Part shown: one piece after another, positions 11,189 through 44,388 of the stretch
Layout: each line of letters starts with the position of its first letter
How positions within the stretch are numbered: the first letter of the stretch is position 1
Assembly: GCA_028715215.1 (NCBI GenBank)
Contig: JAQUSF010000011.1
Location: 1 to 49,399, forward strand
Source: Candidatus Zixiibacteriota bacterium
GTDB taxonomy: Bacteria; Zixibacteria; MSB-5A5; GN15; FEB-12
DNA: 49,399 bases
Direction: 5' to 3'
Position numbers and translations under genes: made by a program
Notes under the pieces: model-generated
Databases searched by the model: none
What the model was told of the DNA's origin: nothing
What the model saw: the letters and a program-made list of their open reading frames with translations, nothing else

Positions 11189-12511
11189 CTATGACTGGTC
11201 TTCGAGTTTTTTCAACTTTTTATAGACATGAGAACGTTCCAGTCCCATTTCCCGGGCGGCGGCGGTGATATTCCCGCCGTTGCGGGCAATAGCCGCCTTG
11301 ATATAATCCCTTTCGAATTCCGCCACGGCGTCTTTAAAAGTCGCGACAGCTCGACTGATACGATATGGTCGCTGGCGTTCGATATCGGATGGACTTATTT
11401 CGCTATTTTCACAATAGATATTAAGGCGCTCAACCAGATTTTTCAACTCCCGGATATTGCCCGGGAAATCAAGCTGTTGTAAATACGAAAGGGCTTCGGG
11501 GGTGAACTTTTTAAAACCGGTTTTGGTCTCCGCAGCAAAGCGGTTGAGGAAATATTCGGCCAGAAGCGGGATATCCTCACGTCGTTCACTAAGCGGCGGG
11601 AGCCGAAACGTTACCACGTTTAAACGATACAGAAGGTCCTGGCGGAATTGTCCTTCCACGACTCGGTTTTCCAGGTCGCGATTGGAAGCGGCAATGATAT
11701 TGCCGGTAACCTCGACCGGTTTGTCGGAACCAACCGGGGTAACGGTTCTGGTTTCGACCACACGCAAAATTTTTGCCTGGGCGGCCAGGGGCATTTCGCT
11801 GATTTCATCCAGAAAGATGGAACCCTGATGAGCTTCGATGAAACGACCTTTGCGGCTTTTACCCGCTCCGGTGAAAGCACCGACGGTATGACCGAACAAC
11901 TCCGCTTCGACCAGTTCGGACGGCAGGGCGGCACAATTAACGGTAACGAAGGGGCCGTCGTTATACTGTCCCTGGCGGTGTATCATATGCGCTATCAATT
12001 CCTTGCCGGTGCCGTTCTCACCCAGGATCAAAAAGCGGGTGGTTTTCGAGGCTGACCGGGCAACATCGTTTTTCAACCGGCGGATAATTTCCGATTCGCC
12101 GATAAAATCACCGTAAAGTTGCGAGGTCAATCTGTTTTTCTCGACTACCAGGCGGCTGGTTTTAAGGGCGTTGTCGATGGTAATCAAAACCCGGTCCAGG
12201 GAGAGAGGTTTTTCTATGAAATCATAAGCTCCCCGGCGGATGGCTTCAACCGCCGTTTCAATACTGCCATGACCGGAAATCATGACCACAATCTGGCGGT
12301 TATCGCGGGATAAAATCGTTTGCAACAGGTCGAGGCCGTTACCGTCGGGAAGAAAGATATCGACAAAGATTATATCGTAATCGGTAGCGGCAAATTCCAG
12401 TCCGGTCCGGAAGTTCTCGGCGGTAACGGTTTCGTGGCCGCGGCGTTCCAGGGCCGTTTTCAGGGAACTGCGTATTTTTTCCTCGTCATCGATTATTAAT
12501 ATTCTGGCCAT
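11189..12511 (-). CDS. NtrX/NtrC-family sigma-54-dependent response regulator
   Basis: 440 residues in three domains. Receiver (about 3-118): acidic pair D8-D9, phospho-acceptor D51 (FVDIFLPDGNG) and K101. AAA+ (about 135-365): Walker A GENGTGKE (164-171), an intact sigma-54-contact loop GAFTGA (211-216) and Walker B SIFLDE (231-236). C-terminal Fis-type helix-turn-helix (NGGNITAAAREMGLERSHVYKKL). It should activate sigma-54 promoters when phosphorylated by the kinase encoded two bases upstream. A sigma-54-type promoter with two palindromic upstream sites lies at the head of this locus (15501-15661), the most plausible target. NtrX is the closest familiar type, judged from the receiver and the NtrY-like partner. 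Confidence 0.9.
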   Translation of the reverse strand: MARILIIDDEEKIRSSLKTALERRGHETVTAENFRTGLEFAATDYDIIFVDIFLPDGNGLDLLQTILSRDNRQIVVMISGHGSIETAVEAIRRGAYDFIEKPLSLDRVLITIDNALKTSRLVVEKNRLTSQLYGDFIGESEIIRRLKNDVARSASKTTRFLILGENGTGKELIAHMIHRQGQYNDGPFVTVNCAALPSELVEAELFGHTVGAFTGAGKSRKGRFIEAHQGSIFLDEISEMPLAAQAKILRVVETRTVTPVGSDKPVEVTGNIIAASNRDLENRVVEGQFRQDLLYRLNVVTFRLPPLSERREDIPLLAEYFLNRFAAETKTGFKKFTPEALSYLQQLDFPGNIRELKNLVERLNIYCENSEISPSDIERQRPYRISRAVATFKDAVAEFERDYIKAAIARNGGNITAAAREMGLERSHVYKKLKKLEDQS

Positions 12512-12513
12512 AT

Positions 12514-14148
12514 TTATATCAGCGGCAGGGTAATGCGTACCCCCGCACCTCCTTCCCGGATATTATAAAGCTCCATTGACCCGCCGTGGTCGTGCACCAG
12601 GCGATGGCAGATAACCAGTCCCAGCCCAGAACCGTTTTCTTTGGTGGTGGCGAAGGGCTTAAAGCTGTCAGCCAGCCGGGCTTCGCTGAACCCGGGACCG
12701 TTATCTTCGACAGTAATTATCAAATGTTCATCTGCTTTATCAAAGACCACCTTCAAGCATGCCCCGGGGGAAGATTCCAATCCGTTCTTTATAAGATTTA
12801 TCAGTACTTGGGTTATGGCTTCCGGGTCGAATTTAAATTTATACAGGCGGCTGTAATCCGTGATAGTTAACCGTCCCGATTGGCTTTCGGACCGGTAAAG
12901 GTTTTTGATACCGTCAATAAACGCCGCCGGAGCGACCTCGATAATGTTGGGTGCTTTCAGGCGGGCAAAACTGACAAATTCATCCAGGATTGCGGTCAGC
13001 CGGGTAACTTCGCTTTTGATGGTGGTGGTTGTTTCCTTCAGGGTTTTTTCAAAATCGGGCAGTTTTTCGAAATAGGCATGGCGAAGGTCGTCGGTGCTGA
13101 CAGCAATCGGGGTCAGGGGGTTTTTTATTTCATGAGCTATTTTGCGTCCGATGGTTTCCCAGGCGGCGATTTTTTCGACTGTCGCCAGTTCCCTCTTAAG
13201 CGCTTTCAGGCGAATCGTCATCTCGGTAAAAGCATCCGCCAGCCGGGAGAATTCCCCTTCTTCATAAGCCATTACCGGGGTGTTAAAATCGCCCGAAGCT
13301 ACCCGGGAGGTTGCGGCTACCAGGTTATTGATTTCCCGCTTGGCGCGACTGGTGACATAAATACCAAGAGCAACGGCAACAATTACGGATAACAAAGCGA
13401 CCAGACCAGTACTGCTTAACAGGGAGTAGAAAAGTGAACGGTCGCCTCTATTATAAAAGACTGCCACGGCATAAAAACCTTTATCTTTTCCCCCGGCCAG
13501 GACCGCCTGAAAAGTATCCTTGTCTTTATAGAGAGTGTTTTTTTCCATATTGCCAAAAGGCGACCGGCTTAGAGAATCAACCACCAGAGTAATCTGAGCT
13601 TCGAGCATCGCCGTCAACTCCTTTTGCCAGCGAAAGTCGAGATAGCGCCCGGTATAAAGAAACAAATGGCGCTCGACCGGAATTAGAAAAGTGTAGGAAG
13701 GGTGTCCGCCCCAAAGGTCATACTCCATTGTTTCCATCGGGGAAAAATGTTCCGGGACCGGTTCGAAGGGGGAAGTGTTGAGGGGTTTGGCCAGGAGGCC
13801 GGTTCGATGATAGGTCGCCAGAACACAGCCGTTAGTGTCAAGGAGCTCCATAAAATCCATCCCGAACGGTCGGGGGTCAAGACGTGCCCGGTTGGCGTGA
13901 CCGGTTTTTATCTGATGCAACGCCTTTATAAAAAACGGTGAAATGACCAGACTGTCGAGAGCCGTCTGCATGGTCTGTTTATAAGAATCGTTGAACCTGA
14001 TATATCGTTGCAGGTCCTCGAGAGCCTGCCGTTGAAAGGAAATTTCGTTTTGCCGGGTGGTATATAAATATATTACCGCCATTAACACCAGTGAAGGCAG
14101 GACCGCTACGGCAATTAAATAAATTCTGATGCGGGTAGTCAGACTCAT
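12514..14148 (-). CDS. NtrY-like membrane sensor histidine kinase
   Basis: 544 residues. An N-terminal membrane segment (about 8-30) is followed by a periplasmic sensing domain of roughly 210 residues, a second membrane segment (LLSVIVAVALGIYV, about 255-275) and a HAMP linker. The dimerisation helix has the phospho-acceptor histidine at 339 within KIAHEIKNPLTP. The ATPase domain has N-box NLIKNGLESSPG, G1 VEDNGPGFS and G2 GSGLGL. The HEIKNPLTP form is typical of NtrY. The gene overlaps the preceding one by 4 bp (ATGA) and leads into the sigma-54 regulator after two bases. It probably reads a periplasmic signal, possibly through the secreted protein encoded directly upstream. Confidence 0.9.
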   Translation of the reverse strand: MSLTTRIRIYLIAVAVLPSLVLMAVIYLYTTRQNEISFQRQALEDLQRYIRFNDSYKQTMQTALDSLVISPFFIKALHQIKTGHANRARLDPRPFGMDFMELLDTNGCVLATYHRTGLLAKPLNTSPFEPVPEHFSPMETMEYDLWGGHPSYTFLIPVERHLFLYTGRYLDFRWQKELTAMLEAQITLVVDSLSRSPFGNMEKNTLYKDKDTFQAVLAGGKDKGFYAVAVFYNRGDRSLFYSLLSSTGLVALLSVIVAVALGIYVTSRAKREINNLVAATSRVASGDFNTPVMAYEEGEFSRLADAFTEMTIRLKALKRELATVEKIAAWETIGRKIAHEIKNPLTPIAVSTDDLRHAYFEKLPDFEKTLKETTTTIKSEVTRLTAILDEFVSFARLKAPNIIEVAPAAFIDGIKNLYRSESQSGRLTITDYSRLYKFKFDPEAITQVLINLIKNGLESSPGACLKVVFDKADEHLIITVEDNGPGFSEARLADSFKPFATTKENGSGLGLVICHRLVHDHGGSMELYNIREGGAGVRITLPLI

Positions 14149-15455
14149 GGCACGCGCTCTTTTTCAGTTGCCGGTAATTTTAACCTGGTCAGATTCCTGT
14201 AATCGAAGCGACCGTTTTCATCGAAATGGCAGTTGCCGATATATTTATTACAGGTCATAAACAGAGTGGGGCGGAAAAGTGGAAAAATACCCAGGTCATG
14301 TATCAAGCCCTGTTCGGCCAGAGTGTAATATTTTTCCTTTATGTCCGGTTTATCAGTCTTTTGGGAAGCCTCAAGATAATCGCTGATTATCTTCAGGTTC
14401 TCTATCTGCGAAGTCTCAGCCGGTTCGAACTTTTCTAAAATGCTTATGAGATACTCCAGGCCCGTGGGTGTAGAAAGGTCGCCGGCGGGAATATAAGTCA
14501 AAATTAAATCAGCCTCCCGGCTGTCGGTAGTGATATCGACCCTGATTTTTTCACGGGCCAGAATATCAGCGAAATATAAGGCGACTTTCTGAAGACTGGG
14601 ATGTTCGAAGCTCAGGTTTAACTGCTCCGGGCGTGGTGCCAGACGGGTTAACAGGACTTTTCCTTTTTGCGGGTCATAAGGATAAGGCCGTCGTCCGGAA
14701 TCATCACTGGTAAAAAAGGAATAAACCGGAACAGGCAGATCGCCTTCGAACAGATAAGGCAAAAGGAAAGCGCTGAAACGGTAGTACAGAGAAGTTGTTA
14801 AAATTCCCTGAACTGAACTCGCTTTGGAGAGATTGGGTAACAAAACGGCCAAAAAAGGCGCCCTTGATGATTTGGTGGTTGATGGTGGCGGTGTCGTATA
14901 TTGTGAGTCGTAAGTTATATGAATATCTATATCATAGATTAAGGATGAGTCGTAAATATCGTTTTCAGTCCCGTTTGATAATATTAAGATTCGATTGCCC
15001 GCCGAGGTGCTCAAAGTAGTCAGCGGATAGTCGGCTGATTTTAAGGGGTGGAAAAAAAGGATACTTTGTTCCACCGAGTCCATGGCTGATAATCCGACAG
15101 TAATGATAGTCTGGCTGTCGATACCGGCGGTCTCTATAACGGCGAAGCATGAGCCTAAGTAAACGGAATCAAAAAAACCACCCGTGGGAGTACTGTAACT
15201 TACACCCAGGTAAGATTTTTCTATCGTTCCCGAGTAAAGAGAATCCTGACTGCAAAATACTTTGAATTTACTGCAGGGAAAGATATTTGCTTCTTCACCG
15301 GCGGAGAAATAAAGCCGGTCCTGATTTAATTGAAGAATATTACTACGGTATTCGTTGGCACTGCTGTTGATAACCAACGAAAGAATACTTATTAAAAGTA
15401 TCGGTAAGTATTTTAAACTACTATAGAATATATTGACCTCCAAGGATTTATACAA
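14145..15455 (-). CDS. Secreted protein with a degenerate solute-binding (SBP_bac_5-like) C-terminal half; unrecognised N-terminal half
   Basis: About 436 residues. An N-terminal hydrophobic stretch (YLPILLISILSLVINSSA) looks like a signal peptide or anchor. The first half is Ser/Tyr-rich beta-type sequence that I do not recognise. From about 265 the sequence resembles the last lobe of dipeptide/oligopeptide-binding proteins: LNLSFEHPSLQKVALYFADI, then ADLILTYIPAGD, then a terminal GIFPLFRPTLFMT. The order GKVLLTRL-helix-strand-strand fits that lobe, but the ligand pocket is not intact enough to name a ligand. The start is doubtful: no ATG exists. TTG 15455 has no Shine-Dalgarno sequence, while GGAGGT (15436-15441) precedes an in-frame ATA at 15431. 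It overlaps the kinase gene by 4 bp, suggesting a ligand-presenting partner of the kinase (inference). Confidence 0.6.
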   Translation of the reverse strand: MYKSLEVNIFYSSLKYLPILLISILSLVINSSANEYRSNILQLNQDRLYFSAGEEANIFPCSKFKVFCSQDSLYSGTIEKSYLGVSYSTPTGGFFDSVYLGSCFAVIETAGIDSQTIITVGLSAMDSVEQSILFFHPLKSADYPLTTLSTSAGNRILILSNGTENDIYDSSLIYDIDIHITYDSQYTTPPPSTTKSSRAPFLAVLLPNLSKASSVQGILTTSLYYRFSAFLLPYLFEGDLPVPVYSFFTSDDSGRRPYPYDPQKGKVLLTRLAPRPEQLNLSFEHPSLQKVALYFADILAREKIRVDITTDSREADLILTYIPAGDLSTPTGLEYLISILEKFEPAETSQIENLKIISDYLEASQKTDKPDIKEKYYTLAEQGLIHDLGIFPLFRPTLFMTCNKYIGNCHFDENGRFDYRNLTRLKLPATEKERVP

Positions 15456-15500
15456 TTAAACCGAAGGCTTGGCGCCATTCAAGTTTTTTTAGACAAATCC

Positions 15501-15518
15501 CGTGTCATTTTTGACACG
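15501..15518. promoter_or_regulatory. Palindromic upstream activator site 1 (CGTGTCA-N4-TGACACG)
   Basis: CGTGTCATTTTTGACACG is an 18-bp perfect dyad. It is nearly identical to the dyad at 15564-15581; only one loop base differs. A TGTCA...TGACA dyad upstream of a -24/-12 promoter is the usual shape of an enhancer for NtrC-type activators. It is followed by T-rich DNA and could be mistaken for a terminator, but no plus-strand gene precedes it. Confidence 0.75.
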
Positions 15519-15563
15519 GCTTTTTCTTTAAAATATCGTCACTTATACAATAATATTTAAAAC

Positions 15564-15581
15564 CGTGTCACTTTTGACACG
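15564..15581. promoter_or_regulatory. Palindromic upstream activator site 2 (CGTGTCA-N4-TGACACG)
   Basis: CGTGTCACTTTTGACACG matches site 1 at 17 of 18 positions. The centres are 63 bp apart, six helical turns, so both face the same side of the helix. The centre lies about 75 bp upstream of the -24 element, a normal enhancer distance. Confidence 0.75.
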
Positions 15582-15644
15582 ACAGTTATTCCCCGCCATT
15601 TGCTTTGCACTATTTAACTTATTGTATGACAATAGATTACTTGG

Positions 15645-15661
15645 TTGGCATCAGTTTTGTT
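15645..15661 (+). promoter_or_regulatory. Sigma-54 (-24/-12) promoter of the propeller lipoprotein gene
   Basis: TTGGCATCAGTTTTGTT fits the sigma-54 pattern YTGGCAC-N5-TTGCW. The -24 GG is at 15647-15648, and TTG of the -12 element ends at 15659, followed by T in place of C. The spacing of ten bases between GG and the -12 dinucleotide is exact. The predicted transcription start is about 15672, leaving a leader of roughly 30 nt before the AAGGAGGT ribosome-binding site. Confidence 0.75.
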
Positions 15662-15701
15662 ATAAGGTCTATTGAAAGCTAACATTAAATTAAGGAGGTA
15701 A

Positions 15702-16754
15702 ATGATGAAAAGAAAAACACTTTCAAAGGGCTTGCTTGGAATTATGATTCTGGCTTTGGTTTTGGGCGGCTGCAGTTCGGACCAGACCAAGCCTGAATCA
15801 AATTTTGTCAAAGAGGTTACTGATAGTATCGGTAATGCCTTAGTCAAAAATGTTCTTGAAAGCACTCTGGTTAAGAAAGCTTCGGCTGTTGACACCAACC
15901 ATGTAGACAAGGCTGGTCAGTCTGGACAAGTGACCGCAATAGCTATAGTTAATAGCAGGCTTTATGCGGTACTTGATGGCGGTGTGGTCGTTTATGATTT
16001 TTCAAACAAGTCTCAGAAATTTATCCCGGTGGAAGACGATCTTAAAGCCCTGGCGGTGCACGAGGGTAAGCTTTTTGTCGGCGGTGCCAATCTCTATGCC
16101 ATCGAGGATAATAAACCGGTTAAAACTGATGATGCCTTCGAAGGGGCGATAACTTCCCTGTACGGTTATGGGCCACGTCTGATGGTCGGTACCACGACCG
16201 GTCTTTATGCCGTCGGGATTTTCGGCCGGGAGCATCTTTTTGATGATGTTTCGGTAACGGCGCTTACGGCTGATGAGAACGGACTGTGGGTCGGTACTTC
16301 CGGCCAGGGTCTCTATCGCTGGGACGGCGAGAATTTCCAGAAACGCTTTCTACTGCGTGATACCACCCTGTTTGATTCTGTCAATACCCTTGCTTTCCGT
16401 TATCAACATCTGTATGTCGGGACGAACAACGGCCTGCATATCTATGATGGCGGGCGCTGGGAGAACCTGACCACCGCTGATGGACTGCCGTCGAATAACG
16501 TTCGCTCTATCGATGTTTCGGAGTGGGTGATTTATGCCGCAACCGACCGCGGTATGATATCCTGTTTCAACGGCGACATGGAACCGGTCATGAAACTCGA
16601 GGATATGAATATCAGGCTGGTCAAAATATATCGGGGCCGGGTAATCGCCGTTACCGACCGCGGCAGTATTCTCTATAAATCCGGCAATGTCCTTAAAACG
16701 CTGATTGAACCGGAAATAAAAAATGAAGAAAGTTTTATCAGCGCCCTTGAATAA
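15702..16754 (+). CDS. Lipoprotein with a two-component-regulator-type beta-propeller
   Basis: 350 residues. The signal peptide ends in the lipobox LGGC (Cys about 24), so the protein should be lipid-anchored in the envelope. The rest is made of short propeller repeats of the Reg_prop type: GLWVGTSGQGLYRWDG, then LYVGTNNGLHIYDGGRW followed by LTTADGLPSNNVRSI, as in the sensor part of hybrid two-component proteins. No kinase domain follows, so this is the propeller alone. AAGGAGGT (15692-15699) serves ATG 15702 or 15705. Expression probably depends on sigma-54 and on the regulator encoded divergently, judging from the two palindromic sites and the -24/-12 element. A role as an induced envelope sensor or scaffold is inference. 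Confidence 0.8.
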   Translation: MMKRKTLSKGLLGIMILALVLGGCSSDQTKPESNFVKEVTDSIGNALVKNVLESTLVKKASAVDTNHVDKAGQSGQVTAIAIVNSRLYAVLDGGVVVYDFSNKSQKFIPVEDDLKALAVHEGKLFVGGANLYAIEDNKPVKTDDAFEGAITSLYGYGPRLMVGTTTGLYAVGIFGREHLFDDVSVTALTADENGLWVGTSGQGLYRWDGENFQKRFLLRDTTLFDSVNTLAFRYQHLYVGTNNGLHIYDGGRWENLTTADGLPSNNVRSIDVSEWVIYAATDRGMISCFNGDMEPVMKLEDMNIRLVKIYRGRVIAVTDRGSILYKSGNVLKTLIEPEIKNEESFISALE

Positions 16755-16824: not shown

Positions 16825-19209
16825 TTAAAATTCCCATTTCCAGGAAAAACCCAACGAAGGAAGAAATTGCAGGTAATAGACAGGTTTTTTTTTGAAGTAA
16901 TAACCGTCTTCTGTCCAGATTATATCATACTCATAAGTAAAAATGTTGTCGTGGTTGTAAAGGTTAATGATTTCCAGAAAAACATTAATGCGACCTTTGG
17001 AAGTATTGAAAAGGCGATTAATCCTGAAATCCATGCGGTGATAGACCGGCAGGCGTTGTTTATAAATATCGTCAAAAGTTGCATAGACGAAAAAAACCCA
17101 GAAATCATCTTTTAACTGTTCTGTAAAGGGCCAGCCTGAATGGTACTCCCAGGACAAAGCGAATTTCCAGGTGGGGGAGGGTTTATAGGAAAGGTCGATA
17201 AACAGGGCATGGCGCTGGTCATATTCACCCGGGATATCCTTGTTGTTGGATATATCAAGGTTGTCGAAGGTGTATTCAAGCAGCTTTTCCCTGACATATG
17301 AAAGTGCGTAGGCCGCTTGCCAGTTGAAATGTTTATTGTCATCGCTTTTTAAAAGCAATTCCAGGCCCTTCGAACGTGAATTGTCTAGAATAAGTTTAAC
17401 TCTGTCAAAATTTGCCTCCCGGTACAATTCTGTTCTACATAAGAAGTTTCTGTAGTCGGGCCGAAGGTTGGTTGTTTTCCTGTAATATCCTTCAAGAGAG
17501 AACCGGAAATTATTAATTTTTTTTTCAAAGCCGATGATATAATGTTCCGCTCTTTCGGCCGGATAAAAGGTTGTATCGTCGTCGGCGACGGCCAGTTCAT
17601 AAAGTGCTTGTGGTTGATAAAAGTAACCCCAGCCGCAATGAAGGGAGGTCTTTTTCCCGATGTCGAAAACAGTGTTTATCCGCGGGCTAATATAGTCGTC
17701 ACCGATATAAAATGGGTAGTCATATCTTAGGCCGATCACCGTTCTGATAAAAGGTGCGATGTGCATCTGGTTTGAGAGGTAGGCACTAAAAGTCCGACTG
17801 GTCATATCGTTTATATATTTCAAGGTATCATGACGATAATAGTAATAAGGGGGGTCGTTTTTATAACGGTTTTCCTGAATGCTGAAATAATCATATGCGG
17901 CTTCCATAAAATCAATATTTATACCGGCGTGTAAGGAATATAAAGGCGACAGCTCAAGTATATGGTCCTGTTTGAAGCCGTAAAATCCGAAACTCCTCGA
18001 ATCGGTTACATCGTAAAATAAATTCTTGTTATTTTCATAGAAAGCATATCCTTTTCGATTATTATTTATATTTCCAAGATAGACTATAGTACGAACGAAA
18101 AACTTCTCCTGCATTATGGAATTCAAGGTGAGCCAGCTGTAAGTATTGTTATAAGTAGTTTTTGAGATATTGCTGATTTCTCCCTCGTCATCGGCAAAAT
18201 CGAAATCGTCATGGGCATAAAGCAAATTAGCCGTCAGGAAGTGATTCGGTCCCGCTTCGATGCCGCCCTTGACGTAAAAATCGTAATAAGCGGGCGAAAC
18301 ATCTTTATAATTATCTGTTATGTCTGATACCAGTTCGAAATACCCCCGGCGGGCGGATACCAGCCAGGAGCCCTGGTTATTGTTAAAAGTTCCCGACGAA
18401 AGACACCGGGCGTTGAAAAAATCGATGCTTGTCGAAAGGCTCTTCTTATCCGCTTCGGGTTGTTTGGTTCTGATTTTGAAGACTCCGCTCAAATGGTTTC
18501 CGTAAGCCGCTGAAAAAGCGCCGGTGCTCAGGTCGATACTTTCCACGATATCCATATCGATAATACTCAATATACCGCCATCGACATCTTTTATATGAAA
18601 CGGTTCATAAAGCTCGAGTCCGTCCAGCAGTACTAAAACCTGGTCGTGTTCGCCGCCGCGTACCTTGAAAGTCGCCGAAAAATCATTCGATGCGACTCCG
18701 GGTACCCGCGTTACGGAGCGAAAGATATCTTCGCCTATTTTAGGTGATTCGGTAAGGTCGGTCTGCGTCAGGCTGTGGTGCGAAATGGAAAATTGCTCGA
18801 TAACGTTGGTTCGGTTCGACAGAACGGTAATATCATCGACCGCCACCGGAATATCATGCATGGTGATATTCAGCCTCAGAGTATCGCCGGCTTTGAGAAA
18901 CACCGTTAGCGGTTCCGTTTCCAGTCCGACATGGCTGAAATTCAAGATATAACTGCCGGGTATGAGGTCATCGATTTTGAAATAGCCGGCCTGGTCGCTT
19001 TTCAATCTGGTCGTATTGGATAAAGAAACAGTTACGTCCGATAAAGGATTACCGGTATTAAGGCGGGTTATAAGCCCGAGTATCACACCGTTCGAAGAAG
19101 AGTTATTTTCGATTTTTTGACCGTAGCTTTCAGGGATTAATATGAAGAAAAATAAAAAAAACAGGCCGGCGATGGAAATAACATGAAGATTTTGGAAATG
19201 ACTTTTCAT
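16825..19209 (-). CDS. TonB-dependent outer-membrane receptor with carboxypeptidase-regulatory-like N-terminal domain
   Basis: 794 residues. A signal peptide (to about SYGQ, 31) is followed by a CarboxypepD_reg-like beta-sandwich (about 40-120; GVILGLITRLNTGNPLSDVTV). Next comes a plug domain (about 150-260; TRVPGVASNDFSATFKVRGG, LVLLDGLELYEPFH) and a 22-strand-type barrel ending in the aromatic FSWKWEF, the outer-membrane assembly signal. The added N-terminal sandwich is typical of Bacteroidetes/FCB receptors. The substrate cannot be told: no SusD partner, siderophore gene or metal repressor site lies next to it. It stands alone between two terminators. Confidence 0.88.
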   Translation of the reverse strand: MKSHFQNLHVISIAGLFFLFFFILIPESYGQKIENNSSSNGVILGLITRLNTGNPLSDVTVSLSNTTRLKSDQAGYFKIDDLIPGSYILNFSHVGLETEPLTVFLKAGDTLRLNITMHDIPVAVDDITVLSNRTNVIEQFSISHHSLTQTDLTESPKIGEDIFRSVTRVPGVASNDFSATFKVRGGEHDQVLVLLDGLELYEPFHIKDVDGGILSIIDMDIVESIDLSTGAFSAAYGNHLSGVFKIRTKQPEADKKSLSTSIDFFNARCLSSGTFNNNQGSWLVSARRGYFELVSDITDNYKDVSPAYYDFYVKGGIEAGPNHFLTANLLYAHDDFDFADDEGEISNISKTTYNNTYSWLTLNSIMQEKFFVRTIVYLGNINNNRKGYAFYENNKNLFYDVTDSRSFGFYGFKQDHILELSPLYSLHAGINIDFMEAAYDYFSIQENRYKNDPPYYYYRHDTLKYINDMTSRTFSAYLSNQMHIAPFIRTVIGLRYDYPFYIGDDYISPRINTVFDIGKKTSLHCGWGYFYQPQALYELAVADDDTTFYPAERAEHYIIGFEKKINNFRFSLEGYYRKTTNLRPDYRNFLCRTELYREANFDRVKLILDNSRSKGLELLLKSDDNKHFNWQAAYALSYVREKLLEYTFDNLDISNNKDIPGEYDQRHALFIDLSYKPSPTWKFALSWEYHSGWPFTEQLKDDFWVFFVYATFDDIYKQRLPVYHRMDFRINRLFNTSKGRINVFLEIINLYNHDNIFTYEYDIIWTEDGYYFKKKPVYYLQFLPSLGFSWKWEF

Positions 19210-34316: not shown

Positions 34317-35819
34317 ATGAAGAATATTTTTTTAATAGTGGTATTTTTGACGGCAGTATTGTCAGCATGTTGCCTGCTCTTGATTTCGGCCGGCAACGCC
34401 GTCACGGTTAATTCGGAACCTGCCTCCCGCCAGCTCTATACCTGCGGGATGCACCCGCAGATAATCTCCGAAGAACCGGGCTATTGTCCCATTTGCGGGA
34501 TGAAACTTACTCCCAAAAAAGACGGTGCGACTTATTCCGGAGCTGTAAAAATAGACCCGGTCACGGTTCAGAATATGGGTATCAAAACCACCCCTGTCGC
34601 TTTGCGGGATTTGACCAGAACGGTTCGTATGTCCGGTAAAATAACTTACAGCGAGCCGCATCGGTATGCCATCAATTTGAAATTCAGCGGCTGGGTGGAA
34701 CGTGTGCATGTCACCTTTGAAGGTGAAAAAGTCAATGCCGGTCAATTACTGCTGGAGATTTACTCTCCGGAGCTGGTTGCCGCTCAAAAGGAACTATTGA
34801 TAGCCTTAAAATCATTCCCCGTGGAATCGTCTGCTGACACGAGCGGGAAGAGTTTTCTGGAAGTTGCCCGTAAACGGTTGAAAAACTGGGACGTTTCTGA
34901 TGAAGCGATTGAACAACTGCTAAAAAATGAAGAAGTCATACGTACCATGCCGATCCGGTCTCCGGCTACAGGGATTGTAATTTCTTGTAATATTACCGCC
35001 GGGGATTATGTTGAAGCCGGGAAGGAATTGTACAGAATAGCCGACCTTTCGCAAGTCTGGGTAATCGCCCGGGTATATGAGCAGGACTTTCCCTGGATAA
35101 AACTCCAGCAAACGGCCAGCGTGACAGTACCCGGCCTTCCGGGGCAAAAATACACGGCGGAAGTAAGTTATGTGGCTCCTTTTCTCGAGGCCGGGCGTCA
35201 GGCGGAGCTACGTCTGGTTTTGAATAATAAGAAAGGTTTGTTCAAACCGGATATGTATGCCGAGGTTGACCTTCATGGTAAAAGTGAAAGTCCGCGGCCG
35301 GTTGTTCCCCGGTCGGCCGTGATAAATTCAGGCGTGCGGGAGCTGGTTTTCATTGATGAAGGTGAGGGTGTTTACAGAGCGCGCGAGATTGTCACCGGGG
35401 TGGCGGGTGACAGTGACCTGGTCGAAGTCCTTTCCGGATTGATGGCGGGTGAAAGAGTTGTCGTATCGGGACAGTTCCTGCTTGACAGCGAGTCACGGTT
35501 AAGTGAAGCTGTCAACCGGGGTGCGCCGGGGGATAATTATGGCAAGGTTCCATCCGCACCTGCAGGGGATAGACCGGTGTTTAATTTATCGGATATTTAT
35601 ACCTGCCCGATGCCTGAACACTATCATATCCTGCAGTACGGACAGGGTGACTGTCCCGAATGCGGGATGAAGCTGGTGCCGGTGGAGGAAACGGATAACT
35701 CCGGTTTTTATATATGCCCGATGCCTGAGGACCGCGTCGCCAGGAAGGAGCCCGGCCGGTGTCCGGTTTGCGGTATGGCACTGGTAAAATTCGAAAAGGA
35801 AACGGGCTATGATAAATAA
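34317..35819 (+). CDS. cusB: CusB-like RND periplasmic adaptor with three heavy-metal-binding domains
   Basis: 500 residues from ATG 34317 (AGGTGA four bases upstream; a GTG at 34293 overlaps the previous gene). A signal or lipobox-like LSAC lies at about 18. Heavy-metal-binding domain 1 is at about 41-67 (YTCGMHPQI...CPICGMKL). The adaptor core (barrel-sandwich hybrid, alpha-hairpin, beta-barrel) spans about 80-400 with GKITYSEPHRYAINLKFSGW and VNAGQLLLEIYSPEL. Two further metal-binding domains lie at about 428-455 and 464-490 (CPMPE...CPECGMKL and CPMPE...CPVCGMAL). Having three such domains is unusual; typical CusB has none or one. Metal is probably Cu(I)/Ag(I). Overlaps the CusA gene by 11 bp. 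Confidence 0.87.
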   Translation: MKNIFLIVVFLTAVLSACCLLLISAGNAVTVNSEPASRQLYTCGMHPQIISEEPGYCPICGMKLTPKKDGATYSGAVKIDPVTVQNMGIKTTPVALRDLTRTVRMSGKITYSEPHRYAINLKFSGWVERVHVTFEGEKVNAGQLLLEIYSPELVAAQKELLIALKSFPVESSADTSGKSFLEVARKRLKNWDVSDEAIEQLLKNEEVIRTMPIRSPATGIVISCNITAGDYVEAGKELYRIADLSQVWVIARVYEQDFPWIKLQQTASVTVPGLPGQKYTAEVSYVAPFLEAGRQAELRLVLNNKKGLFKPDMYAEVDLHGKSESPRPVVPRSAVINSGVRELVFIDEGEGVYRAREIVTGVAGDSDLVEVLSGLMAGERVVVSGQFLLDSESRLSEAVNRGAPGDNYGKVPSAPAGDRPVFNLSDIYTCPMPEHYHILQYGQGDCPECGMKLVPVEETDNSGFYICPMPEDRVARKEPGRCPVCGMALVKFEKETGYDK

Positions 35820-38800
35820 AGTGATAGAGTATTCCATAAAAAATCGCTGGCTGGTGCTGGCGGTTGCCGCTTTTACGGCATTGGCGGGTGTTTATGCTTT
35901 CAGGAATATAACGGTGGATGCTGTCCCGGATTTATCCGATGTTCAGGTAATTGTTCAGGCTGATTATATGGGGCAACCACCGCAGGTGGTGGAAGACCAG
36001 GTGACCTACCCGCTGACAACAACCCTGCTGGCTATACCCGGTGCGAAAAGCGTGCGCGGTTTTTCTTATTACGGGATGTCGTTTGTATACGTGATTTTCG
36101 AAGACGGCACCGACCTTTACTGGGCTCGCAGCCGGGTGCTGGAATACCTCTCACAGATGAGTGGGCGGCTTCCCTCGGGAGTAATACCCCAACTCGGTCC
36201 CGACGCCACGGGGGTCGGCTGGGTCTATCAATACGCCCTGGTGGATAAAACCAACCGTCATAACCTGGCGGAAATTCGCTCTCTGCAGGACTGGTTTTTA
36301 AAATATGAGCTGTCGTCGCTCGAGGGCGTATCGGAGGTAGCGTCTGTAGGCGGTTTCGTCCGGGAATATCAGGTCGAAGTCGATCCCCGTAAACTGGAAT
36401 TTTATGACCTCACTCTCGAACATGTCATGATGGCCGTAAAAAAATCCAGTGCCGCGGTCGGAGGACGAATAATCGAGCTCGGTGAAACCGAGTTCATGAT
36501 TCGCAACCTGGCTTATATTGGCGACCTTGAAGATTTACGTAATATTCCCGTGCATTTGGCCTCCGACGGTTCGCCGGTCCTGCTTTTTTCGGTGGCCAAT
36601 ATTCAGATCGGCAGTGCTCCGCGGCGGGGTCTGGCTGAACTCGACGGCGAGGGAGAAACGGTGGGAGGAATTGTGATCATGCGCTGGGGCGATAATGCCC
36701 GCAAGGTTATCGACCGGGTTAAAAAGAAACTGGCCGAACTTGAAACCGGGCTGCCCGACGGTGTGGAAATTGTTCCTGTCTATGACCGTTCCGGCCTTAT
36801 TGACCGGGCGGTCAACAACCTGCAGCGTACTCTGCTTGAGGAAATGATTGTCGTTTTCCTGGTCATTCTTATTTTTTTACTCCATCTCCGTTCCACCCTG
36901 ATTGCCGTTATTACCCTGCCTTTGGGTGTTCTCTTATCCGTTCTGACCATGTATCTTTCGAAGATTGACGCCAATATCATGTCGCTCGGCGGCATAGCTA
37001 TTGCTCTCGGCGTCATGGTCGATGCTTCGGTGGTGCTGGTGGAGAATGCCCATAAACACAGGGAACGTTCCGATGCCGCTATGGACGGAAAGCGCCTGGT
37101 TTACGAAGCGGCGCGCGAGGTCGGGCCAGCCTTGTTTTTCTCTCTTCTTATTATAACGGTGTCGTTTTTACCGGTTCTGGCTCTGGAGGGTCAATCCGGA
37201 CGGTTGTTTAAACCGCTGGCTTATACCAAAACTTTCGCCATGGCGGCTTCCGCCCTTTTATCAATTACTGTCATTCCGGCTCTGATGGTTTTGTTTATCA
37301 AGGGCCGGTTCCGCCAGGAAAAGAAAAATCCTCTTTCAAGAGTAAGCATCAGCCTCTACCGGCCGGTTATCAACCTGGCGTTAAAGTATAAAATAGCGGT
37401 AGTGATATTATCTGTATTGATTATGCTGGTCACTTTTTTTCCGCTGAGTCGCCTTGGTTCGGAATTCATGCCGCCATTGTACGAGGGCGACCTGCTTTAT
37501 ATGCCGACCACCCTGCCCGGGATCTCCATCGCCAAAGCCCGGGAAGTGCTGCAACAGACCGACCGTATCATTAAAACATTTCCGGAGGTGGAACGGGTTT
37601 TCGGCAAGGTGGGCCGGGCGGAGACTGCAACCGACCCGGCGCCGATGACCATGATTGAAGCCACCATCATGCTCAAACCGCCGGAACTGTGGCGGCCCGG
37701 TATGACTTTGGACAGGCTGGTCGATTCGCTTGACCGGGCAATCCGTTTTCCCGGGCTTACCAATGCCTGGACAATGCCTATCAAAACCCGTATTGATATG
37801 CTCGCCACGGGTATAAAAACCCCCGTCGGCATTAAAATCATGGGCCCTGACCTGGACAGCCTGAATGCCATCGCCCAACGGGTCGAAAACGCTGTTAAGT
37901 CGCTGAAGGGAACACGCTCGGTGTATGCCGAGCGGGTAACCGGCGGGGGTTATCTTGATATTGATATCGACCGGTTTCGAGCGGCGGCGTACGGTCTGAC
38001 CGTAGGCGACATCCAGCAGGTGATAGAAACGGCCGTCGGCGGCATGCCGGTGGCGGAAACGCTGGTCGGAAGAGAACGGTACGCCATCAGTGTGCGCTAT
38101 CCGAGGGAACTTCGCGATAACCCGGAAGCCCTGAAAGGCGTCCTGATAGATACCCCGGTTGGCGGTCGCATCCCTCTGGGACAAGTGGCGGATATCCATT
38201 TCGCCACCGGAGCAACCATGATTAAATCCGAGAACGCCCGGCTTACCGCCTGGGTCTTTGTGGATCTCAGGGACATCGATGTCGGAACATATGTCAATAA
38301 CGCCCGCCGGGCGGTAGCGCAACAGGTGATTCTGCCCGCCGGCTATGCCCTGGTCTGGTCCGGTCAATTTGAAAATATGCAGGAAGCCGCGGCCAGGCTT
38401 AAAGTGATTATTCCCCTGACTCTCTTTATCATCGGCCTGCTTTTATATCTTTATTTTAAGAATATCACCAACTGCCTGATAGTATTATTATCGCTGCCTT
38501 TTGCCCTGGTCGGAGGTATCTGGTTGTTTTACCTGTTCGATTTTAATGTCTCCGTGGCGGTTTATATTGGTTTTATTGCTCTGGCCGGCCTGGCCGCGGA
38601 AACCGGGGTGGTCATGCTGGTATATCTGGATGAAACCCGGGACAGGTACCTGAGAGAAAACCGTTTAAATTCCTCCGCGGCTTTGAAAGAGGCTGTTATC
38701 GAAGGCGCTGTTGAAAGGGTACGCCCGAAATTGATGACCGTGGGAACAACGATAATCGCCCTTTTGCCCATTATGCTGGGACAGGGTACCGGTTCCGAGG

Positions 38801-38916
38801 TGATGCAGCGGATTGCGGCACCCATGCTCGGCGGGCTCGTATCTTCAACCATCCTGACCCTGGTGATCGTACCGGTGTTGTATTTTCTGCTGAAAAGCCG
38901 GTCTTTGAACCGTTAA
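35809..38916 (+). CDS. cusA: CusA-like heavy-metal RND efflux pump (Cu(I)/Ag(I) type)
   Basis: 1035 residues, typical length. An inner-membrane RND pump with 12 membrane segments and two periplasmic loops: signature VDAVPDLSDVQV near the N-terminus, GGIAIALGVMVDASVVLVENAHKH in the membrane part, and IALAGLAAETGVVMLVYLDE near the end. Three methionines at 565, 615 and 664 sit at spacings of 50 and 49 residues in the contexts DLLYMP, MTMIEAT and IDMLATG. These equal the spacing and contexts of the E. coli CusA metal-relay methionines 573, 623 and 672, so Cu(I)/Ag(I) is more likely than Zn/Co/Cd. Last gene of the operon. Confidence 0.93.
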   Translation: MINKVIEYSIKNRWLVLAVAAFTALAGVYAFRNITVDAVPDLSDVQVIVQADYMGQPPQVVEDQVTYPLTTTLLAIPGAKSVRGFSYYGMSFVYVIFEDGTDLYWARSRVLEYLSQMSGRLPSGVIPQLGPDATGVGWVYQYALVDKTNRHNLAEIRSLQDWFLKYELSSLEGVSEVASVGGFVREYQVEVDPRKLEFYDLTLEHVMMAVKKSSAAVGGRIIELGETEFMIRNLAYIGDLEDLRNIPVHLASDGSPVLLFSVANIQIGSAPRRGLAELDGEGETVGGIVIMRWGDNARKVIDRVKKKLAELETGLPDGVEIVPVYDRSGLIDRAVNNLQRTLLEEMIVVFLVILIFLLHLRSTLIAVITLPLGVLLSVLTMYLSKIDANIMSLGGIAIALGVMVDASVVLVENAHKHRERSDAAMDGKRLVYEAAREVGPALFFSLLIITVSFLPVLALEGQSGRLFKPLAYTKTFAMAASALLSITVIPALMVLFIKGRFRQEKKNPLSRVSISLYRPVINLALKYKIAVVILSVLIMLVTFFPLSRLGSEFMPPLYEGDLLYMPTTLPGISIAKAREVLQQTDRIIKTFPEVERVFGKVGRAETATDPAPMTMIEATIMLKPPELWRPGMTLDRLVDSLDRAIRFPGLTNAWTMPIKTRIDMLATGIKTPVGIKIMGPDLDSLNAIAQRVENAVKSLKGTRSVYAERVTGGGYLDIDIDRFRAAAYGLTVGDIQQVIETAVGGMPVAETLVGRERYAISVRYPRELRDNPEALKGVLIDTPVGGRIPLGQVADIHFATGATMIKSENARLTAWVFVDLRDIDVGTYVNNARRAVAQQVILPAGYALVWSGQFENMQEAAARLKVIIPLTLFIIGLLLYLYFKNITNCLIVLLSLPFALVGGIWLFYLFDFNVSVAVYIGFIALAGLAAETGVVMLVYLDETRDRYLRENRLNSSAALKEAVIEGAVERVRPKLMTVGTTIIALLPIMLGQGTGSEVMQRIAAPMLGGLVSSTILTLVIVPVLYFLLKSRSLNR

Positions 38917-39316
38917 TATCAAGAATGAGGTCGAAGAAAATATATTTTATCAGGTGAACGAGGCGGTAATTATATAAATATAACTTTTATAAGCGTTACC
39001 ACTAAACCGATAGTATTTTGGGATAAGTGCCTTTGATATATATTTTTTCAATTTTAAAACGCTCGGCGGCAGTCATATTTTATGTTATTGAAATGTAAAC
39101 GGTTATAGCATGGCAGTAATAAAAGAATTTTATTAAACATTATACTTTTTACTGTTTTTGTTTAATAACTTTACATCATTTAGAATATTACTATATTGAG
39201 ATTGTGTTTTTACCGCTTTGCTTTTACTGGTGATTATTTAATCTGACGGATGAGGATATCTTGTGATATCTTGGGAGAATTAATCATTCTTAAAATATTC
39301 CGTGGGAGTTTACCTG
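38917..39316. other. AT-rich gene-free region between the CusCBA operon and the giant propeller protein
   Basis: About 400 bp, clearly richer in A and T than its surroundings, with no gene, hairpin terminator or repeat that I can support. It should contain the promoter of the next gene. GGGAG at 39304-39308 is that gene's ribosome-binding site. Confidence 0.5.
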
Positions 39317-42300
39317 ATGAGAAAATATATACTGATAGTACCGATTCTTATCCTGATTGCTCTGATACTGCTTTTATGGCCATCAAGGCAAAAGAAGGAA
39401 TCGCTCCAGAGTTACCGGGCGCGTACGACCGGTTACCTGATGAAGAAGAAGGGTAAGATACCTAAAGCCGTTCGCCTGCAGCGTCCCAGCGACTGGTTTT
39501 ACCGGCAGCGGGCTTACCCGTACGATACGATTCCGGTAGCGCAGCATCGCCTGGCGGTCTTGAAAGCCCGGGAGATACAGGCTGCTTCGGAAACGTTGAA
39601 TAAAGAAGGCCAGGTTTCGGTGTGGACCGGGGCCGGGCCGACCAATATCCCCGGCCGCATCACCGACCTGGCAGTCCATCCTTCTTACCCCGGCACAATT
39701 TTTGCCGCTTCAGCCGCCGGGGGAGTTTTTAAAACAACGGATTTTGGGGTGACCTGGTTGCCGGTTTTCGACAATCAGGGCGCTCCCGGTATGGGAGCGG
39801 TGGCGGTTGACCCGTCTAACCCCTTGGTAGTTTATGCCGGTACAGGCGAGGTCAATCCTGCCGGGGATACTTATGAAGGCGACGGCATCTACAAATCCAC
39901 CGACGGCGGTCTGACCTGGGATAATGTCGGTCTGCCTTACAGCTATCGCATCGGCAGAATAATTGTCGACCCCCTGTTCCCGGATACGATTTATGTAGCG
40001 GTGCTCGGTTCGCGCTGGAGCGGTAATAATCCTTACCGGGGAGTATATCGCTCCCAGAATGGCGGCGGCACCTGGGAGCAGATTTTATATGTGGCCGACA
40101 ACGTGGGTTGTGTTGACCTGGCTCTGCAACCTGAAGAGGGTGTTTTACTGGCGGCCTTCTGGGAGAGATGGGAAGGCGAGGGCAGTGGTATCTGGCGTTC
40201 CGCCAATCGCGGCGACACCTGGACGAATATCTCCGGTACCGGCGGACTGCCGGCGGTAGCGCTGCAGTTCGGCCGCATCGGGGTGACAATCGGAAAGGAC
40301 CACCATACGGCCTATGCGCTTTATAACGGCGGTCCCGTGCCCAATGACGGCGATTTCTATGGTTTATATAAAAGCACCAACCTGGGTCTTAACTGGACCC
40401 GGACTGACGATGCCGCCCTGGTGGAGCTGAATGCCTCCTGGTCAGGGGGCTGGTATTTCGGTAACGTTCGGATTTCACCGACCAATCCCGATATCGTTTA
40501 TGTCCTGGGACTGGATGTATGGCAGAGTACCGACGGCGGGTCAAGCTGGAATAATATCTCTTCATCGTCGGTGCATGTTGACCAGCATGCCATGTATATC
40601 CTTGAAACCGATGACAGCAAGCTTTATCTGGGCTGTGACGGCGGTGTTTACTATTCGGGGAATTGGGGAAGTTCCTGGTCCCTTATGACAGCGATGGCCA
40701 ACACCCAGTTTTATGCCATCACCATCGATTACTCGCACCCGGAACGGCTTTACGGCGGTACTCAGGATAACGGTACTTTGCGGACAAATACCGGGGCGCT
40801 TGACGAATGGGACCAGATTATGGGCGGGGACGGTTTTTTCACCCTGGTCGATTTCACCAATCCCGATATAATCTATGCCGAGTATCAGTACGGGTCTTTG
40901 TATAAGTCAATTGATAACGGGAATACTTTTGCCTATGCGCTTGAAGGCGTCAATCCTTCCGAACCGACCGGCTGGTGCACGCCGTTTGTGATGGACCCGA
41001 ACAATGCCCGAATTCTGTATTATGGGACCAACCGGGTTTACCGGACGATTGACGGCGCGGGGCAATGGACGGCGATAAGCGAAGCTTTGACAGGTGGAAG
41101 TGGGGTGATTACGACTATCGATGTTGCTCGAACCGAACCCGAGGTTGTCTATGCAGGCACTTCCGACGGAGCGGTGTATGTCACCACCAACGGCGGTTTG
41201 AACTGGAATTTAGTCAGTTCCCAGTTGCCGCAACGATGGATTACCCGGGTAACGGTTGACCCGTTTGATGCCGGGATTGCTTACGTCACCCTTTCGGGTT
41301 ACAAACAGTACGGCGACTACCTGCCGCATATTCATCGTACCGTCAACTATGGAGCTTCCTGGAGTGATATCAGTGGTAATTTACCCGATGCTCCGATTAA
41401 TGACTGTATAGTCGATATTCATAATGAAAATACCCTTTATATCGCCACCGATGTCGGGGTTTTCAAAACCGATAACCTGGGTAATACCTGGTCGACTTTC
41501 GGCACCGACCTGCCTTTATCCGTGGTTCATGACCTGGCTTATCATTATCCGACCCGTTCGCTGGTGGCGGGAACGCACGGCCGTTCGATGTTCCGGACAA
41601 CTATCGATTGCAATGACCCGTTTGACAGTGATAATGACGGCGTCGGGAACGACTGTGATAACTGCCCCCAGGTGTATAACCCGGAACAGGTCGATGTTGA
41701 TATGGATTTTATCGGCGATGCCTGTGATGATTGCGTCGACTGGGACAAGGACGGCTACGGCAATCCCGGCGTACCGGGCAATACCTGTGCTGACGACAAC
41801 TGTCCTTATGATTATAATCCCGACCAGCTGGACAGTGACGGTGACGGTATCGGCGATGTTTGTGACACGCGGTCGGCCGTATGGGATACAGTGACCACGC
41901 CGTGTCTGCAACTGACCGTTGGCAGTAACGGCAACTACGCTAACCGGGGCATGTTCGGGGCGACCATGGATTACGTATTGACCGGTGACTGCGACCCGAA
42001 TGCCGGAGTGTATCTTTACGACGGTTCCCCGGTAATCTGTTATGTCAGCGGTCTTGATACCCTGGCCAGCTATGCCCTGTACGGTCGGCAGTATTTTAAC
42101 CTGGTGGAAGGTAAAAAAGCCACCGTTCCGACGGTTTCCACCACCGCATATGATATTTTCGAATCGGGTACTTTTGTCAGCCGCGATTCCACGCTGGCGA
42201 TGGAGGTAACCTGGTGGTCGCCTAAAAAATCCGACAGCTGCCAGTTTGTCATCCAGGGAATGCGCCTGTATTCATACGACGGTTTCAATCATGAGGGCTT

Positions 42301-43024
42301 ATATATCGGCAATGCTGTTGACTGGGATATTCCATCCGACAATAATGTCGATAATACCGGCGGGTACGATGTCACCCGGAAACTTATTTATCAACAGGGC
42401 TGGGAATTCGACGGTCAGGGTTGTCAGGCCAACGACGCCCGTTTCGGCGGGATGGCTTTTATCGGTTATTATCTCAATGATTCCTGCCTGGTCGATACGG
42501 CAACCCAGCCTTACGGCGCCTATACGGCCAGTAATGTCGTTTATATCTATCCCAACGGGACCTTTGTTCCCACGGAACTGCTGGAAAACATGGCCCAGGC
42601 CGGCTACCGGACCGGCGGCGATTATGAAGACCAGCACTCGGTCATGACCTGTTTTGCCGATTATACCTTACTGGCCAATGATACCCTGATGCTCTACACG
42701 GTCCTGAGTTCCGTGCCTGAAGGTGATCTCACGACTTTGACCGGCAATATCAATAAGGCTAAGAAATGGTTTAACAGTCATGTAAGCCCCCGTTGCAGCT
42801 GTTGTGTCGGTTACACCGGTAACATCGATTGTTCCGAATCGGAGGCTCCGGATATTTCCGATATCTCCCGTCTTATCGATTTTCTCTATCTGAGTCATTT
42901 GCCTCTCTGCTGTAAAGAGGAAACCGATACCGACGGTTCGGGCGGCGACCCGGATATTTCGGACATTACGGCATTGATTGACCATCTTTATTTAAGTCAT
43001 AAAGACCTGGCGATATGCCCGTAG
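39317..43024 (+). CDS. Giant secreted Asp-box beta-propeller protein with TSP3 repeats and dockerin-like C-terminus
   Basis: 1235 residues from ATG 39317 (GGGAG eight bases upstream; a GTG at 39302 would add five). The N-terminus is a membrane or signal segment ([20 protein letters not shown]). Residues about 100-770 form sortilin/sialidase-like propellers with many Asp-boxes of the form [15 protein letters not shown] and TTNGGLNW, as in exo-glycosidase and photosystem-assembly-like propellers. About 771-860 carry three TSP3-type acidic repeats ([15 protein letters not shown]). A 300-residue beta domain of unknown type follows, then the dockerin-like module with Cys pairs shared with the 903-residue protein. 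A surface or extracellular binding protein; catalysis cannot be claimed. Confidence 0.8.
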
Positions 43025-44355: not shown

Positions 44356-44388
44356 AAAAGCCGCGGTGCTGTTATTGGAACAGCACCG
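44356..44388 (-). terminator. Intrinsic terminator overlapping the stop codon of the PKD/OmpA gene
   Basis: CGGTGCTGTT/AACAGCACCG (44364-44373 with 44379-44388) forms a 10-bp stem with a 5-nt loop followed by CTTTTT on the minus strand. The stop codon at 44372-44374 is inside the hairpin, so the last codons of the gene double as terminator. Confidence 0.8.

Follow-up and report, generated by a model that had tools for sequence, protein, structure and literature searches.

The locus analysed here is hosted by Candidatus Zixiibacteriota, a group of uncultured bacteria, and lies in a stretch of DNA of 49,399 nucleotides, hereafter the window. Its ORF coordinates place a lipoprotein gene, PROP, divergently from an operon-like row of three genes, which encode a secreted pseudo-solute-binding protein (P3), a two-transmembrane histidine kinase (HK) and a sigma-54 activator (REG), respectively (Table 1). 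An initial sequence-only reading had positioned these ORFs correctly, with P3 and PROP inside the interval that it named (14145-16754) and HK and REG just beyond. It also described three overlapping minus-strand genes. P3 and HK do overlap, by 4 bp, but 2 bp separate HK from REG, and the overlap thus does not hold for all three.

Table 1. Genes and putative regulatory elements of the four-gene locus, in window coordinates
Feature	Position	Strand	Description
REG	11189..12511	-	Sigma-54 activator: receiver-AAA+(GAFTGA)-Fis HTH
HK	12514..14148	-	Two-TM histidine kinase: dCache-like periplasmic module, HAMP, HisKA (H339 invariant), HATPase
P3	14145..15455	-	Secreted pseudo-solute-binding protein: N-terminal beta domain and eroded family-5 SBP
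TTGTATAA element upstream of P3	15447..15455	-	Conserved; putative -10-like promoter element of the P3-HK-REG operon
Distal palindrome GTGTCATTTTTGACAC	15502..15517	.	Putative REG enhancer
Proximal palindrome GTGTCACTTTTGACAC	15565..15580	.	Putative REG enhancer
Third conserved element TTGTATGACAA	15622..15632	+	TTG-N5-CAA, then N4-TTA
-24/-12 box of PROP, TTGGCATCAGTTTTGTT	15645..15661	+	Sigma-54-type box
PROP	15702..16754	+	Lipoprotein, single propeller, Reg_prop related

Whether the four genes stay together in relatives had been posed as a check on the initial description. They do: among fetched regions on contigs of sufficient length, three families belonging to a single order retain the divergent arrangement of PROP and P3-HK-REG, and the P3-HK-REG linkage reaches wider, across the class. 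The relatives compared are mostly metagenome-assembled genomes. P3 relatives occur in 34 of 61 related genomes. HK orthologues (E<=1e-50) occur in 31 genomes, every one of which also carries PROP. Since P3, HK and PROP are all absent from several genomes that are at least 97% complete (e.g., G010, G013, G019 and G035), gain and loss seem to affect the set as a whole. In two deep families (L271, L272, L274, L275 and L281), the SBP-HK-REG row is followed by pth-/rpsF-like genes, and in L272 by an ssb-like gene as well, all judged by their N-termini. The TonB-dependent receptor gene at 16825-19209 adjoins the locus in the same genus only, and was rejected as part of the system. Farther along, the window encodes an AcrB-family RND transporter (35809-38916, plus strand), a propeller protein of the Sortilin-Vps10 type (39302-43024, plus strand), and a large surface protein of the PKD/OmpA family (44372-49057, minus strand).

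The region between P3 and PROP contains two palindromes, initially described as almost identical, both of which are exact instances of GTGTCA-N4-TGACAC. This sequence occurs twice in the whole 3.2 Mb assembly, both times upstream of PROP, and zero-mismatch matches to the shorter TGTCAN4TGACA are likewise confined, within the window, to these two sites. Across 61 genomes, 63 exact palindromes were found versus 2 for a reversed control pattern; given this excess and the uniqueness of the exact copies in the genome, chance occurrence was rejected. Thirty-seven of the 63 lie at the locus, while the remaining 26 are nearly all singletons devoid of a correctly placed box, mostly within coding sequence, from which a wider regulon was rejected with a single exception. 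In that genome (G040:C18, L116:864-1711), another promoter built in the same way, with 80-bp spacing, precedes the gene of a secreted LolA-like protein, a possible second regulon member. A CTTTTTC tract after the distal palindrome raised the alternative of a simple terminator, which was rejected: in relatives, a near-identical proximal copy accompanies the palindrome at a fixed distance, which makes a regulatory site the preferred reading.

The geometry of these elements is conserved although the intergenic DNA around them has diverged. In 30 of 31 aligned promoters, 79-83 bp separate the start of the proximal palindrome from the downstream -24/-12 17-mer (80 bp in the window), the outlier being L056, where the wrong box was picked and CCGGCATCACGTGTGCA is present at the usual distance. 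Where present, the distal palindrome lies 60-66 bp above the proximal one, mostly 63-65 bp (63 bp in the window), or about six helical turns; family f2 has the proximal palindrome only. In the PROP promoters of family f15 (L275:6940-7060 and L281:6590-6700), the palindrome is apparently replaced by a pair of TGACAC half-sites in direct orientation, with a spacing of about 22 bp. The box itself reads GGCA-N6-TTG, with GA or GT where GC is usual; measured against a -24 GG and a -12 GC with 10-bp spacing, its GGCA and TTG are correctly placed in all or nearly all of the 31 promoters. It had been called a textbook -24/-12 promoter. The -24 GG is indeed there, but the -12 element reads GT instead of GC in the window and GA in most orthologous promoters (23 of 31, with GC in 3), so that "textbook" is an overstatement. 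The joint pattern of palindrome, gap and box matched 27 of 132 genomes (control, 0), nearly always at this locus, and its relaxed form matches the window genome once, at PROP. REG therefore looks dedicated to PROP, as judged from pattern searches, and the palindromes and sigma-54-type box at fixed spacing upstream of the sole predicted target in the genome are consistent with the proposed sigma-54 control of PROP. A third conserved element, TTG-N5-CAA, usually located 23 bp upstream of the box in the window and relatives alike, resembles an IHF-type core and may be such a core or an additional protein site.

A different picture emerges on the opposite strand. No -24/-12 box was seen upstream of P3, where the TTGTATAA element is conserved instead, and a sigma-54 promoter for this operon was rejected on that basis. 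P3-HK-REG thus appears not to be sigma-54 driven, and autoregulation at the operon would not be necessary for the loop. P3 is annotated with a TTG start, which overlaps TTGTATAA and has a GGAGG after it (window 15420-15455). The true start is probably just downstream of this GGAGG, near 15430, a position occupied by ATG in several relatives but, in this genus, by nothing other than ATA/ATT-type codons; the start codon of P3 may be unusual.

The presumptive activator, REG, possesses every part expected of a bEBP: a receiver, an AAA+ Sigma54_activat domain bearing GAFTGA, and a Fis-type HTH, congruent with its first description as a GAFTGA-containing activator. Its recognition helix, RSHLYKK, is kept in nearly all orthologues, and rpoN is present. 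The Pfam domains of HK are limited to HAMP, HisKA and HATPase. The structural model of HK, judged by the succession of its strands and helices, shows a two-part dCache-like module, and a deep HK orthologue matches dCache_3 above cut-off; a Foldseek search with the HK model gave mostly kinase-core matches and did not identify the sensor domain. The initial assignment of the two proteins as an NtrY/NtrX pair was not supported. REG scores 391.5 bits against the NtrX equivalog (NF051870), below its cut-off of 600 bits, and neither Pfam nor the model, with its dCache-like module, revealed an NtrY-type N-terminal region plus PAS domain in HK. Scores against other equivalogs similarly fall short: 328.8 of 760 bits for REG against ZraR, 318.3 of 763 bits against GlrR, and 101.6 of 479 bits for HK against ZraS, which is also the top PDB hit for the HK profile.

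PROP matches Reg_prop (PF07494) at 24.8 bits (cut-off, 20.4), and about seven blades were counted by eye. Its profile matches the propellers of hybrid sensors, PDB 4a2l (E 1.5e-18) and 3ott, in agreement with the earlier view that this propeller is the sensory half of hybrid kinases. The blades of these Bacteroides proteins are homologous to those of PROP, which differs in being single, separately anchored, unfused to a kinase and itself transcriptionally controlled. The window protein has a lipobox, and Cys24 is invariant in 30 orthologues. Its description as lipidated thus stands for the window but is not universal, as the deepest PROPs are TM-anchored instead. In most orthologues, a conserved, apparently amphipathic stretch (residues ~30-60) links the lipid anchor to the propeller. 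NCBIfam returned a weak PorZ match, and neither Pfam nor NCBIfam a ZraP-type one. PROP may be the second envelope sensor first proposed, or else a feedback partner or an effector.

The ancestry of P3 shows in its orthologues and in its predicted fold. The window protein matches neither Pfam, including SBP_bac_5 (PF00496), nor NCBIfam, and orthologues that do match SBP_bac_5 come from families f2, f15 and f16. Deeper orthologues, of ~590-630 residues, are encoded immediately ahead of HK and REG in further families within the class, and for two of these the SBP_bac_5 match spans almost the entire domain (E 3e-52 and 4e-39). In family f2 the match covers only the first half of the domain (2e-11), and in families f1 and f4 the alignment reveals a first lobe that lacks ~150 residues. 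Congruent with this series, the AlphaFold model of P3 (pLDDT 85) resembles family-5 SBPs (Foldseek E 3e-13, TM about 0.5). Both fold and long orthologues being those of a family-5 SBP, the "degenerate peptide-binding lobe" first noted was the correct reading, and P3 is, by homology and predicted structure, an eroded family-5 solute-binding protein. Also close to P3 in the structure search is PDB 2grv, of the LpqW type of SBP-fold proteins, from a different phylum. LpqW has a non-transport role and, to our knowledge, no linkage to a kinase. No ABC permease gene was recognised, judging from N-termini, beside the deep P3 copies inspected, which fits a role in signalling rather than transport. The companion suggestion of an extracytoplasmic ligand protein in the ordinary sense is rendered doubtful by the first-lobe loss and by the loss of the whole gene in one genus; flytrap-style ligand binding by the P3 of families f1 and f4 is unlikely.

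That genus, g4, bears on a possible contact of P3 with the kinase. PROP, HK and REG are intact there, and P3 is absent from the locus and, by profile search, from the genome. It is here that the HK sensor has diverged the most relative to its own kinase core (z -2.0/-1.6, the lowest two of 20), in what amounts to a single evolutionary event shared by two sister genomes, while PROP is at its most conserved (z +2.2/+1.8, the highest two). A sensor that diverges where P3 is lost, next to a PROP that does not, fits docking of P3 on the HK sensor. Among the four-gene genomes, which are phylogenetically non-independent, distances of sensor and P3 show a partial correlation of 0.43 with REG and kinase core controlled, compared to 0.08 for core and P3; sensor and PROP distances correlate too (0.35).

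Genome comparison thus establishes, at the level of sequence, the gene set, its synteny, the operator and promoter footprint, a single predicted target and the SBP ancestry of P3. The reading that we favour, at a probability of roughly 0.6, is that of a dedicated envelope-sensing circuit akin to ZraPSR and QseEGF, in which P3, HK and REG would drive a single propeller lipoprotein. P3 would dock on HK, at its dCache-like periplasmic domain, and tune the kinase according to an extracytoplasmic cue. HK would then phosphorylate REG, and REG~P would bind the two in-phase palindromes, as their conservation and position suggest, activating sigma-54 RNA polymerase at one promoter, that of PROP. PROP would act in the envelope as the output, possibly feeding back. 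A bolder version remains tentative and, in our estimation, is rather improbable as a whole: that an SBP, reduced step by step from a full flytrap to a half lobe and finally lost, became a co-receptor of HK that binds no ligand, within a closed, one-target sigma-54 circuit, whose free-standing propeller lipoprotein reports on or repairs the envelope.

Two characterised systems offer precedents. In E. coli and Salmonella, ZraR drives the divergent sigma-54 promoters of zraSR and zraP, the latter encoding a periplasmic chaperone that doubles as a repressor (PMC4987338). Both loci, the present one as predicted from sequence, have an adjacent kinase/enhancer-binding-protein pair controlling a divergent gene for a periplasmic protein via sigma-54, enhancer sites in the shared intergenic region and a very small regulon. 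They differ in output, a propeller lipoprotein here and a zinc-binding chaperone there, in the extra pseudo-SBP gene heading the present operon, and in the sigma-54 control of zraSR itself, which was not seen for P3-HK-REG. In QseEGF (GlrK-QseG-GlrR), the kinase that feeds a sigma-54 activator is switched on by a lipoprotein of the outer membrane (PMC6075780, PMC12691602). Kinase, sigma-54 activator and envelope lipoprotein similarly share one locus there, with TGTC...GACA enhancer half-sites and a link to envelope homeostasis (PMC6075780, PMC12691602). However, GlrR sites are TGTC-N10-GACA as opposed to TGTC-N6-GACA here, and QseG is a non-propeller protein co-transcribed with its kinase, whereas here the lipoprotein is the predicted target of regulation. 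With equivalog scores far below cut-off, a different operator spacing and a different output, the locus belongs to neither system. Finally, an SBP gene next to a kinase gene is a general arrangement (PMC11113362). As in SBP-dependent histidine kinases, a family-5 SBP is here encoded, across the class, immediately ahead of a kinase whose sensor is dCache-like, but the SBP of families f1 and f4 differs in having lost much of its first lobe.

Alternatives to the P3-dependent circuit mostly concern which partner matters. Conceivably, though we think it somewhat unlikely, PROP feeds back by binding HK or P3, in the way that ZraP represses ZraSR or the lipoprotein QseG activates QseE, and P3 is secondary or vestigial. 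As in ZraPSR, a divergent sigma-54 output gene adjoins its own kinase (PMC4987338); the QseEGF kinase is directly activated by an outer-membrane lipoprotein; and the genus that lost P3 still has PROP alongside HK and REG. Yet upon that loss the sensor diverged strongly and PROP did not, from which PROP seemingly constrains the sensor little, and the TM anchor of the deepest PROPs departs from a lipoprotein regulator. Equally tentative is the proposal that PROP is an envelope effector, for instance a scaffold or a lipid/LPS-handling protein like PorZ in another phylum, within a plain envelope-homeostasis response. Its PorZ-type similarity and the promoter before the LolA-like gene would point that way, but the former is confined to the propeller blades and the latter to a single genome.

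A further reading, distinctly improbable in our view, holds P3 to be a vestigial SBP with no role, HK sensing directly via its dCache-like domain and REG driving PROP. The dispensability of P3 in one genus, where the gene is wholly lost, and the stepwise erosion of its SBP domain make it possibly vestigial, and SBP genes beside kinase genes do not always have a functional link to them (PMC11113362). Against this, the P3 ORF is intact and has conserved residues (e.g., PLFRP and GVSYS) in nearly all carriers in families f1 and f4, and its loss coincides with the sensor change. That the four genes are merely chance neighbours, functionally unlinked, is a reading for which no supporting point was found, and it is refuted by synteny and fixed operator geometry across families.

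Together, these comparisons identify the four-gene locus as real and conserved, its parts, as predicted from sequence, differing from those of the two E. coli envelope-sensing systems that it resembles. A literature search, with most subscription journals outside its scope, found no paper on such a locus in this phylum. The P3 series lays out, in living genomes, the putative passage of a nutrient-binding protein into a signalling accessory and then its disposal, and the same series displays the change in a kinase sensor upon loss of P3. The locus also presents a putative, nearly minimal sigma-54 regulon, of one activator and one promoter in fixed geometry, in a phylum for which metagenomes are the main source of knowledge.
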